A stretch of 64,000 bases of DNA, from NCBI GenBank assembly GCA_026417625.1, contig JAOACW010000001.1, positions 1 to 64,000 on the forward strand, written 5' to 3'. Below the pieces are notes generated by a model. That model did not search any database. It had not been told where the DNA came from and saw only the letters and a program-made list of their open reading frames with translations. Made by a program: the position numbers and the translations under genes. This DNA comes from Syntrophales bacterium (GTDB lineage Bacteria > Desulfobacterota > Syntrophia > Syntrophales > UBA8958). Below, in pieces: positions 5,814 through 8,695 of the stretch. How positions within the stretch are numbered: position 1 is the first letter of the stretch; every line of letters starts with the position of its first letter.

Positions 5814-6962
5814 ATGAAGAATCGATTTATTTTATCTATCATATTGATCGCATTCTTTTTAACCCCCTCAACAGCATTACCCCAGCTCCAGTGCGTGGAT
5901 GCCAAAGGGGAAGCAACCATTAAAGACAATGATACTCCCTCCGCACGCTTAGAAGCAATTGCCCGGGCAAAATGGGACGCCATTGAGAAAACCGTTGGGG
6001 TAGACGTTAGTGCGGGAAGTTTTGTGTCGAACTTTACCCTTATTGAAGATGTGATGAAAACCCAGGTTGGGGGTGCTATTAAAAACTTCAGTGTAAAAGG
6101 GGAAAGTATCAAGGATGGAATTATAACGGTAAACATAACAGCCTGCGTTGAACCCAAAAAGGCAAAAGATGCAATTACCACTGACTTATCATTGAACAGT
6201 GGTGTTGCCGTTTTCATTCCCGCCAGAAAACCTTCTAAGGAAGGCATAAGTGATGAATACGAAGAAACTAACATTCTAACGGAATCCCTCATAGAAAAAC
6301 TCACAGAACAACATTACAGAGTTATCGATGTAGCACCCACTCATGCGGCGGATGCGAGAGAAATTGAGAATGCGGTGCGCACGGGGAGAACACTTTCAGT
6401 GCGCAGTCTCATGTACAAATTCCTGTCGAACATTTTAATTATCGGAAAGACGGACTATACCGTCTCCACAAAGAAGGGAGAAGACATAGGTTATGGACTT
6501 TCCATGCCTTTTAATAACGTCACAGTCCGCCTAACCTATAGAATTGTGGCCCGGAACAACAAAACGGGTAACACAGAAATTCTAACAGCAGGCACTGAGC
6601 AGGGAAAAGGTTTGCATGCCAACCTCGAAGATGCCGCTGCCATAGCTCTTAGGGATGTGGCCGAAAAGGTAACACCAAAAATCCTCGATAAAATTGCCTC
6701 TTACCTACAGGAGAATACCAAAAGGATCAGGGTTAAAGTTGAAGGTGTAAAGGACCTTGATACAAATATGGAAGTAAAATCATTACTCCAGAATGTCGTT
6801 TGGGTTTCGGAAGTGGAAGAAACAGCCATGGGAGAGTATATCGTATCATACCCTGAAAAAACTATTTACCTCGCGAACAGTTTACAGCAGCAGGGAGACT
6901 TTAGTGTAACCCACTTCACACCCTATGCCCTGACATTGAAATACAAAAAAGGGGGAAACTGA
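5814..6962 (+). CDS. Secreted FlgT-like protein
   Basis: A signal peptide occupies about residues 1-23. The following GEATIKDNDTPSARLEAIARA pattern (alternating strand, then a helix running through conserved Ala positions) is typical of the N-terminal domain of flagellar assembly protein T and related LPP20-like proteins. The middle part (about 115-290) is alpha/beta, and the C-terminal IRVKVEGV-DLDTNMEVKSLL segment is a second small domain. No flagellar gene is present in the window, so the flagellar role of FlgT should not be transferred. It is two bases upstream of the CsgG-like lipoprotein gene, implying joint expression and probably a shared periplasmic complex (inference). Confidence 0.62.
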   Translation: MKNRFILSIILIAFFLTPSTALPQLQCVDAKGEATIKDNDTPSARLEAIARAKWDAIEKTVGVDVSAGSFVSNFTLIEDVMKTQVGGAIKNFSVKGESIKDGIITVNITACVEPKKAKDAITTDLSLNSGVAVFIPARKPSKEGISDEYEETNILTESLIEKLTEQHYRVIDVAPTHAADAREIENAVRTGRTLSVRSLMYKFLSNILIIGKTDYTVSTKKGEDIGYGLSMPFNNVTVRLTYRIVARNNKTGNTEILTAGTEQGKGLHANLEDAAAIALRDVAEKVTPKILDKIASYLQENTKRIRVKVEGVKDLDTNMEVKSLLQNVVWVSEVEETAMGEYIVSYPEKTIYLANSLQQQGDFSVTHFTPYALTLKYKKGGN

Positions 6963-6964
6963 AC

Positions 6965-8152
6965 ATGAAGGAAAAAACTTTCGTTGGCATCCTTGCCCTT
7001 TTGTTTTTGGCAGGCTGTGCCACTGCACCGAAGGTGGATCTAACTACCTTTGTTACGGATCCCACACCTAAGGTGAATATTCCATCAATATGCAAACCCC
7101 TATATGATACACCTTTGCCTCTCGTAGCCGTGGTAAACTTTACCAATAACACCACCTTTGATTACGCTAGTGTGGTTCAAAGTCAAATGCAAGGAACAAG
7201 GGACAGAACCGCTGTCGGTGGTGCTGCTGTAGGTGTGGTACCCGGGGCAGCTGGTGTCGTTTGGGGGAAAAAGGAAAAGGAGAACTACCAGGCGAGTGCT
7301 GAAACCATATCCCGGCAAGTAAACGCCAAACTGTCAGAAAGCATCGAAGATGGGGTCATGGATGAGATTGTCAATATGGGTGGTGCCAAGGTGTTCACCC
7401 GTAAGGAAATGGAGAAGATATTCTCAGAACATAAATTTCAACAGTCAGGATTGGTGGATGATTCTACGATAATTCGCCTGGGAAAACTGAAAGGCGTAAA
7501 ATACATCATTACTGGCTCAGTCAATAACGTGGATATCAAATGGGTTACTCATGAATCCGCCCGACGTGGTCTTACGAAAGGAACGGGCAGTGTGGTGGTG
7601 GATCTTTTGGGCACAGCAGCTGCAGCTGCACTTGAAACCCAGGAAGGTTGGAACTTGGGCACTGAAATTACTGTAAGGATCCTCGATGTCGAAAGTGGTG
7701 AAGTGGTATTCTCCAAAAAGTTGGCAGGCAGGTACGTCATAGGGAAAACACCTACCCTTACTTTTGACGCCATCATCGGGGCCATAAAAAAGGCCGCGGG
7801 CAACAGCCTACAGAACGCCCGTCCAGAGCTTTCAAAGTACTTCCCCTTAAAGGGCTATATAACTTTGGTTAAAAGAAGCGCCGATGGGAAAGAAAAGGCA
7901 GTGAGGGTTAACATAGGCGAAAAGGCAGGACTGAAACCCGGACATGAGCTATACGTTTACAACTTCGAAGAAGTTGTAGACCCAATGTCAGGTAAAAAAG
8001 AATGCGACGTTCAGAGATTACCACTAGTCCTCCAGGTATCAGCCGATCAGTTGCAGCAGAATGCGGCATGGGCCCTCGTTAAGGCGGAAAAACCAGAACT
8101 ACTAAATCTTGTGAAAGTTGGACAGCTCGTAGAAAGAAAACCTATTCGCTAG
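6965..8152 (+). CDS. CsgG-like outer-membrane lipoprotein with FlgT-like C-terminus
   Basis: MKEKTFVGILALLFLAGC is a lipoprotein signal with the lipid Cys at residue 18; the next residues (Ala, Thr) favour outer-membrane sorting. The central region has the CsgG/TolB-N-like fold: LVAVVNFTNN, then a long helix with SRQVNAKLSESI, KVFTRKEMEKIF, LKGVKYIITGSV and EITVRILDVESGEVVF. A Gly/Ala/Val-rich hydrophobic stretch (about residues 80-100) may help form a membrane hairpin. The last 100 residues (YITLVKR, KAGLKPGHELYVY, WALVKAE) resemble the C-terminal domain of FlgT. CsgG itself is the curli secretion pore, but no curlin or CsgEF is nearby. Substrate unknown. Confidence 0.68.
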   Translation: MKEKTFVGILALLFLAGCATAPKVDLTTFVTDPTPKVNIPSICKPLYDTPLPLVAVVNFTNNTTFDYASVVQSQMQGTRDRTAVGGAAVGVVPGAAGVVWGKKEKENYQASAETISRQVNAKLSESIEDGVMDEIVNMGGAKVFTRKEMEKIFSEHKFQQSGLVDDSTIIRLGKLKGVKYIITGSVNNVDIKWVTHESARRGLTKGTGSVVVDLLGTAAAAALETQEGWNLGTEITVRILDVESGEVVFSKKLAGRYVIGKTPTLTFDAIIGAIKKAAGNSLQNARPELSKYFPLKGYITLVKRSADGKEKAVRVNIGEKAGLKPGHELYVYNFEEVVDPMSGKKECDVQRLPLVLQVSADQLQQNAAWALVKAEKPELLNLVKVGQLVERKPIR

Positions 8153-8170: not shown

Positions 8171-8695
8171 ATGCGGATTATCATAGACGGCTACAATATG
8201 ATCCGTCAGTCGATGGATCTTGCTCGTTACGAGCGATCCTCCCTCGAAGCGGGAAGAAAAGCCCTCATCAGACTTCTCAGCAACTACAGAACAGTACGTC
8301 CCCATAGGATAACCGTTGTATTTGACGGATGGGGAGGAGGAGAACCTGAGGAAATGAGAGATCTTCAGATGGGCATTGAAATAGTTTATTCCCCCTTGGG
8401 CAAAAAAGCGGATGATGTAATCAAACATCTTGTGACAAAATTGGGTGAAGAGGTTCTCGTTGTTACATCTGATAGGGAAATCGCCACATACGTGCAGAGA
8501 CACGGCAAATCAGCAATTAATTCCCATCAGTTCGAAGATATCATTAGACAGCGGATAAGTAGCCGGTCCTACATATCGTTTCCAACTACCGAGGTAGATA
8601 GAGAAGACAGGCCATTAAAGGCGAAGAAAAAAGGACCATCTCACCGACTCTCCAAGAAGGAAAAAGAGTTAAGAAAGTTACTGAACCAACTTTAA
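8171..8695 (+). CDS. NYN-domain RNase, YacP-like
   Basis: The 174-residue protein opens with IIIDGYNMIRQS, the NYN/PIN-like strand with acidic Asp5, and continues with VVFDGWGGGE, KADDVIKHLV and VVTSDREIATYV, the spaced acidic residues of the DUF901/YacP nuclease family (B. subtilis Rae1 is a ribosome-associated mRNA endonuclease). The basic C-terminus (KAKKKGPSHRLSKKEKEL) may bind RNA or ribosomes. It lies 18 bases after the CsgG-like gene and overlaps the 3' end of holA by 18 bases on the opposite strand. Target unknown. Confidence 0.82.
   Translation: MRIIIDGYNMIRQSMDLARYERSSLEAGRKALIRLLSNYRTVRPHRITVVFDGWGGGEPEEMRDLQMGIEIVYSPLGKKADDVIKHLVTKLGEEVLVVTSDREIATYVQRHGKSAINSHQFEDIIRQRISSRSYISFPTTEVDREDRPLKAKKKGPSHRLSKKEKELRKLLNQL

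Follow-up and report, generated by a model that had tools for sequence, protein, structure and literature searches.

At positions 5,814 to 8,152 of the window analysed here (the whole stretch of 64,000 nucleotides (nt), taken from contig JAOACW010000001.1 of a Syntrophales bacterium), two adjacent genes, which we call P1 and P2, encode a secreted protein and a lipoprotein whose domains resemble those of the flagellar protein FlgT and the curli pore protein CsgG. The pair is a real, conserved FlgT-like two-gene envelope module that does not depend on flagella and that resembles FlgT/PelC collars in its fold. Its two open reading frames (ORFs) are 2 bases apart, from the P1 stop codon (TGA, 6960–6962) to the P2 ATG at 6965:

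5814–6962, + strand: P1, ORF of 382 residues without a lipobox; signal peptide (by eye), FlgT_N domain, CsgG/TolB-N-like middle domain and C-terminal alpha/beta domain
6965–8152, + strand: P2, ORF of 395 residues, predicted outer-membrane lipoprotein (LAGC, cleaved before C, followed by A) with CsgG/FlgT_M and FlgT_C-like domains

The initial annotation had read this locus as a FlgT_N-type secreted protein followed, 2 bases on, by a lipoprotein that joins CsgG to a FlgT_C-like domain, and both the ORFs and the Pfam profiles bear this out: CsgG (PF03783) is found in P2 at 34.3 bits, above its cut-off of 20.8, and FlgT_N (PF16548) in P1 at E = 9.9e-6, just below the curated cut-off. The accompanying view of an outer-membrane lipoprotein with a secreted partner agrees with the P2 lipobox and the P1 signal peptide. 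Profiles, alignments and predicted structures divide the two proteins into the following parts:

5895–6143, + strand: P1 residues 28–110, FlgT_N-like domain (Pfam profile; alignments)
6192–6713, + strand: P1 residues 127–300, middle domain of the FlgT_M / CsgG / LptE / PqiC / TolB-N fold (AlphaFold2 (AF2) model, VIA-align ranges)
6720–6944, + strand: P1 residues 303–377, C-terminal alpha/beta domain (DSSP of the model)
7205–7267, + strand: P2 residues 81–101, conserved Gly/Ala-rich loop from the first strand to a long helix (alignment; model, low confidence)
7307–7738, + strand: P2 residues 115–258, match to CsgG PF03783, profile positions 28–153 of 210 (Pfam profile)
7583–7639, + strand: P2 residues 207–225, hydrophobic Ala-rich segment, predicted helical (model, confidence about 57–73)
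7898–8092, + strand: P2 residues 312–376, FlgT_C-like beta domain (Pfam profile; fold comparison)

FlgT_N is recovered in 12 of the 13 members of one P1 alignment (A3, window included) at E 0.1, with a best value of 5.2e-10, and Cys27 and Cys111, which lie at the edges of this domain and are each conserved in 46 of 51 rows, could form a disulfide. Inspection of the P1 N-terminus revealed no lipobox. The lipobox of P2 contains Cys18, a cysteine conserved in all 21 rows of the P2 alignment (A6, window included, two rows identical), with the lipobox pattern itself in 20; sorting of such lipoproteins to the outer membrane follows the +2 rule. At E 0.01 the CsgG profile matches all 21 rows and FlgT_C 8 of them. 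Cys43 and Cys347 of P2 are likewise conserved in 21/21 rows and a disulfide is possible.

A search of PDB sequences with the P2 protein or the P2 profile returned nothing credible. We compared AF2 single-chain models of P2 (mean predicted local distance difference test score, pLDDT, 77; 21 rows) and P1 (79.9; 51 rows) with the PDB, and for both proteins the top two Foldseek matches were FlgT (3w1e) and the LPHT ring (8z5n), whose matching chain we take to be FlgT (P2: 8z5n, E 1.4e-13, and 3w1e, E 5.3e-13; P1: 3w1e, E 3.1e-10). In VIA-align, P1 residues 26–352 fall on FlgT 1–289 and P2 residues 45–393 on FlgT 92–354, so that by model comparison P1 corresponds to the N and M domains plus an extra C-terminal domain, and P2 to a lipobox followed by M and C. 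As modelled, then, the pair is FlgT-like and split across two chains. The CsgG-type domain of P2 is closest to PelC (VIA Z 11.6 over 123 residues, root-mean-square deviation (rmsd) 2.8), followed by CsgG (10.8), LpoB (10.3) and GNA1162 (9.5), and the middle domain of P1 matches CT253, DUF330, LptE, CsgG, PelC and PqiC at Z 8.7–11.0; the best scores of the CsgG-type domains of both proteins against PelC and CsgG are 9.6–11.6.

Conservation of the pair and exchange of the CsgG-type partner

All 11 genomes of the family have a P1 match: the window's own, nine at 66–68% identity, and one (G004) with a weak, paralogue-like match only. In one of the nine (G005) P1 lies in two pieces, the smaller 56% identical, with stops in one of them (L013/L015, G005:C248), which points to either a degraded gene or an assembly error. 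In a sample of 297 genomes from the phylum, 11 carry a P1 orthologue above 330 bits, and four further matches at 58–70 bits were set aside as paralogues. Among 155 genomes of the order, P1 is present in 57 and P2 in 24, and all 24 P2 genomes (at E 1e-40) also have P1, on the same contig in every case. The profile matches of the two genes are spaced by 14–20 nt in 19 of these 24 genomes and by 67–1162 nt in the other five. P1 relatives are 36–68% identical to the window's protein, and within the order P2 is found only where P1 is present, which makes the arrangement more than chance.

A scan of named genomes with two conserved peptide patterns, a procedure that will have missed distant relatives, found P1 in Syntrophales, Smithellaceae, relatives of Geobacter, Thermodesulfovibrionales and other Nitrospirota; the best 80 of the 94 stretches recovered make up the 80 P1 loci considered below. 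A co-oriented CsgG-like gene follows P1 in 56 of them (counted when it began at most 250 nt ahead of the P1 end or 900 nt beyond it), of which 23 are of the P2 type (>140 bits) and 33 are weaker matches. Counting fragments and second copies, there are 77 CsgG-like neighbours, and these divide into separate subfamilies: 25 with TPR domains, 23 of the P2 type, 17 in a mixed short group and the rest in small groups. On the well-supported branches of a P1 tree (73 rows), at least nine changes are forced for the P2 label, at least eight for TPR and at least seven for the short group; losses are among these changes, and some of the contigs are short. The CsgG-type partner has thus been exchanged or lost repeatedly, and P1 needs, or tolerates, different partners of this type. 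Two long open frames were discounted. The apparent 951-residue P1 of L106 results from an upstream frame that reads into P1 and has no match in Pfam at E 0.01; the CsgG-plus-TPR frame of L040 and L096 crosses masked sequence, as seen in L040, and was not accepted as a fusion.

The initial annotation had proposed an outer-membrane channel, which in its fullest form makes P2 a CsgG-like export channel for an unspecified cargo and P1 its periplasmic adaptor. The presence of the CsgG profile in every P2 row speaks for this, as do the conserved Gly/Ala-rich loop, which we take to occupy the position of CsgG's constriction loop, and a hydrophobic stretch with the potential to insert into the membrane. 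Each CsgG subunit contributes two hairpins to the barrel, and these presumably map onto P2 at residues 207–225 (first hairpin) and after the end of the CsgG match (second hairpin). At the first site the P2 model has helices of low confidence in a stretch that is hydrophobic and variable in length. At the second, the match ends at profile position 153 of 210, all 21 rows have the same number of residues between this last strand and the helix that follows (15 in P2, read by eye, vs 31 in the partner protein of locus L109), and in the model the chain enters the helix directly, with the second hairpin absent; together these leave no room for CsgG's second hairpin. The whole P2 chain is also nearer to FlgT (M and C) than to CsgG in Foldseek, and a search of the window's genome for CsgF, which did not extend to CsgA, CsgB or CsgE, found nothing. 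A CsgG-type pore is therefore unlikely for P2, and we regard the export-channel explanation as improbable.

This judgement does not extend to every gene that stands in for P2. The stand-in of L109 (6176–7147) matches the CsgG profile over positions 6–202 of 210, aligns with solved CsgG at residues 62–176, through the first membrane hairpin, and has a FlgT_C match of 34.7 bits, above the Pfam cut-off. On this evidence some stand-ins may be real pores, as P2 probably is not; their more pore-like appearance is itself a point in favour of the channel. L109 and its relatives at L108, L111, L104 and L112 are CsgG proteins with a fused FlgT_C-like domain (the cut-off being passed in L109, the one tested), and no curli gene was recognised by eye near any of the five.

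Genes named by eye as rnpA, yidC, jag and mnmE (clusters 2–4 and 7) frequently precede P1 in Syntrophales. In the window P2 is followed on the same strand by this gene:

8171–8695, + strand: YacP-like NYN gene, 18 nt 3′ of P2 (PF05991, 107.6 bits)

It is perhaps co-transcribed with P2, and is not a recurring neighbour at the 80 P1 loci. A scan of the window for consensus promoters and terminators gave about as many sites as shuffled sequence, and an Rfam search found two tRNAs and nothing else.

A proposed envelope ring and its possible clients

We favour, at about even chances of being right, the explanation that P1 and P2 function as a single unit, a two-chain FlgT-like ring protein forming a non-flagellar ring or collar under the outer membrane. 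P1, soluble in the periplasm, would supply the N and M domains of FlgT, and P2 the lipid anchor, a CsgG-type M domain and the FlgT C domain. The two would probably co-assemble against the outer membrane, on its inner side, as a ring or collar built through the M-domain fold, as rings are made in PelC, CsgG and FlgT, and this would provide a platform on which another envelope complex is held or aligned; contact between the proteins, ring formation and ring position are what we infer. The initial annotation had left a choice between a channel and an assembly platform, and we retain the platform as the better guess and let the channel go. Since the pair occurs without flagellar genes in many bacteria, it is probably an envelope ring with a non-flagellar job. 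No earlier description of the P1–P2 pair was found in the literature searched, which covers few subscription journals, and the pair points to an envelope-ring family for which we found no assigned function.

Several results weigh against this explanation. P2 is missing from 33 of the 57 P1 genomes of the order, and 22 of the 80 P1 loci have no CsgG-like gene just downstream (two more are cut by a contig end; four of the 22, L047, L051, L067 and L121, have less than 800 nt of sequence left). The FlgT_N match of P1 narrowly misses its curated cut-off (26.4 vs 28.8 bits), the FlgT_C match of P2 (PF16538) reaches 19.1 bits against a cut-off of 27, and neither the P1 profile (51 rows) nor the P2 profile (21 rows) finds FlgT among PDB sequences at E 1. 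The models are of single chains, with mean pLDDT of 77 (P2) and 80 (P1); their whole-chain superposition on FlgT is loose (TM-scores 0.20–0.30, rmsd 11–13 Å), and their VIA Z to FlgT (10.6 for P2, 10.9 for P1) is level with PelC, CsgG, CT253 and others, so that the domain order is better supported than the packing. Finally, FlgI is found in 15 of 24 genomes with P2 vs 46 of 131 without it (p 0.021 before correction for the tree; within P1 genomes p 0.06), and the tree-corrected test, which sees no link, has low power for a weak one.

The last of these points bears on whether the pair forms an extra ring on the flagellar motor, the part that FlgT plays in Vibrio. In favour, FlgT heads the Foldseek results for P1 and P2 alike, and the window's genome (G000, 1.79 Mb, 97.8% complete) is that of a flagellated bacterium: the statement in the initial annotation that flagellar and curli genes are missing holds for the 64-kb window and fails for the genome in respect of flagella, with FlhA, FlgI and a flagellar cluster on contig C7 (other genes named by eye), the CsgF search remaining empty. 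Against a motor ring, flgI is absent from 31 of the order's 57 genomes with P1 (22 of the 31 have a completeness of 95% or more), from nine of the 24 P2 genomes, and from 6 of the 11 P1 genomes of the phylum sample (present in the other five). Within the order FlgI occurs in 26/57 P1 genomes vs 35/98 others (Fisher p 0.24). A quick P1 tree covering 55 of these 57 genomes requires 18 changes of flgI and five of P2, and the two do not move together: across nine independent pairs that differ in flgI, P2 differs in the same way in 0.7, in the opposite way in 1.1 and not at all in 7.2 (averages). Nor was any flagellar gene recognised by eye among the recurring neighbours at the 80 P1 loci. The pair shows no dependence on flgI; we reject a flagellar function on the distribution, given the 31 P1 genomes without flgI and the lack of a tree-corrected association, and a motor ring is highly improbable. 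That the pair acts outside flagella, and as far as tested outside curli, had been claimed at the start and is supported.

What the ring might serve is hinted at by families that recur within about 5 kb of P1 at the 80 loci: an SLH/TPR lipoprotein (26 loci), an LPP20-like protein (25), a TIGR04219-like outer-membrane barrel (13) and MlaE of the Mla/MCE lipid pathway (6), families that were tested on examples, with LPP20 matches below the Pfam cut-off. In L041 a neighbour of P1 resembles MlaE on inspection by eye alone, and no count includes it. These neighbours raise the prospect of an outer-membrane lipid-homeostasis machine, in which the pair works with an Mla/MCE transporter, the barrel and an SLH lipoprotein tying the outer membrane to peptidoglycan. 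SLH/TPR and LPP20-like genes come after the pair in L113, from the cultured Geomesophilobacter sediminis (a further locus, L116, is from Geomonas sp. Red32). L123 and L124 show the one-strand order SLH/TPR, LPP20-like, P1, barrel, barrel, MlaE; the same barrel family stands at most 1.5 kb before mlaE in 26 of 63 loci fetched from the order, and a barrel gene precedes mlaE in the window's genome as well; and PqiC and LptE are among the matches of the P1 middle domain. The mla genes, however, lie near P1 in only 6 of 80 loci from two or three lineages (L122–L124, same strand, one clade; L087, L089 and L091, divergent), P1 is found within about 6 kb at none of the 63 fetched barrel loci, mla-side barrels of the order and P1-side barrels score best with different reference barrels, and the window's pair stands apart from such genes, the genome's SLH/TPR gene being elsewhere, on contig C3. 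We treat the lipid link as a lead because of the 0/63 barrel loci and the six mla loci, and consider the lipid-homeostasis machine doubtful. Broader still, and unlikely, is the idea that P1 and an exchangeable CsgG-type partner join with the SLH/TPR lipoprotein, the LPP20-like protein and the TIGR04219-type barrel in an undescribed bridge between outer membrane and peptidoglycan that serves MCE/Mla-type lipid transport. In that case FlgT of the H-ring would have arisen when both parts of a module of this kind were fused, and LipL46 would be the module's spirochaete descendant.

Related genes occur elsewhere in the genome. On contig C5 (L130 4407–9999) a TIGR04219-like barrel (score 42.7, below the cut-off of 105) and a second ddl precede genes that, by eye, are mlaE, F, D, C and A in a row. 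A lone SLH/TPR lipoprotein gene lies at C3:11378–12538 (L129 8364–9566) between valS-like and miaA-like genes, its product 41% identical to that encoded beside P1 in L099. Of three CsgG-domain matches, the window accounts for one and contig C3 for the other two. A second FlgT_N/CsgG operon on C3 (L030 4172–13401) encodes a P1 paralogue (27% identity; FlgT_N 45.7 bits) with a TPR+CsgG protein, an fn3+CsgG protein and a GNA1162-like protein that has a beta-helix region; inspection by eye showed relatives of this paralogue elsewhere in the family (L014, L018, L023).

Comparison with known systems

The LpoB profile (PF13036) matches P2 at 22.2 bits, just below its cut-off of 22.3, and all 21 alignment rows at E 0.01, which together with the fold score given above would suit a role of P2 in activating peptidoglycan synthases in the manner of LpoB, P1 being its cofactor. 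This fold is, however, common to PelC, CsgG, FlgT, GNA1162, PqiC and TolB at similar Z, and to our knowledge LpoB has neither a FlgT_C domain nor a FlgT_N partner; an LpoB-like role is very unlikely, and we do not file the pair as LpoB because the score stays under the cut-off. With the CsgG curli pore P2 shares a match above the Pfam cut-off and the character of an outer-membrane lipoprotein, but it differs in having no space for the second hairpin, for which reason we do not file it there, in its added FlgT_C-like domain, and in that no CsgF was found in the genome. PelC, the outer-membrane collar of the Pel exporter, gives the highest VIA Z for the CsgG-type domain of P2 and is a lipoprotein ring without CsgG's barrel hairpins, but it has a single domain where P2 has two, CsgG-type and FlgT_C-like.

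LipL46 of Leptospira aligns with nearly all of P1: its model NF033164 spans residues 28–377 of 382 (E 1.3e-10) and is matched by 47 of the 51 members of a P1 alignment (A5, window included) at E 0.001. P1 is a distant relative of LipL46 over its full length. We do not file the pair as LipL46, because P1 scores 40.5 bits against a curated NCBIfam cut-off of 400, and P1 also differs in having no lipobox. LipL46 has been studied as a surface and host-binding protein (PMC9779477), and it gains from P1 a structural relative and a prediction, namely a CsgG-type ring partner. A further likeness is to Campylobacter FlgP and to HP1454 and HP1456 (Lpp20) of Helicobacter pylori, which share an LPP20/FlgP-type domain: the P1 profile finds PDB entry 9hmf ('Lipoprotein, putative'; E 3.3e-4), which we take to be Campylobacter FlgP. 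According to PMC11756786, in which CsgG occurs 0 times, HP1454 is secreted, has three domains and has FlgP and FapH as interaction partners; HP1456 interacts with the same two proteins and is dispensable for motility. This is consistent with domains of this kind not being bound to flagella.

FlgT of Vibrio resembles the pair in that it leads the Foldseek matches of both proteins, has its N, M and C domains all represented in the pair, and is extracytoplasmic. FlgT is a single chain, whereas the pair comprises two chains, carries M twice, is lipidated in P2 and has an extra C-terminal domain in P1; and FlgT serves the flagellum, whereas the pair is present in genomes without the P-ring gene. 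We do not file it as FlgT because it is neither a single chain nor linked to flagella. FlgT and the H-ring are described in PMC6375700 as parts of sodium-driven motors, and of one dual-ion motor, of Gammaproteobacteria. The same domains in a conserved protein pair, present in bacteria without the P-ring gene, suggest a possible origin of such ring parts.

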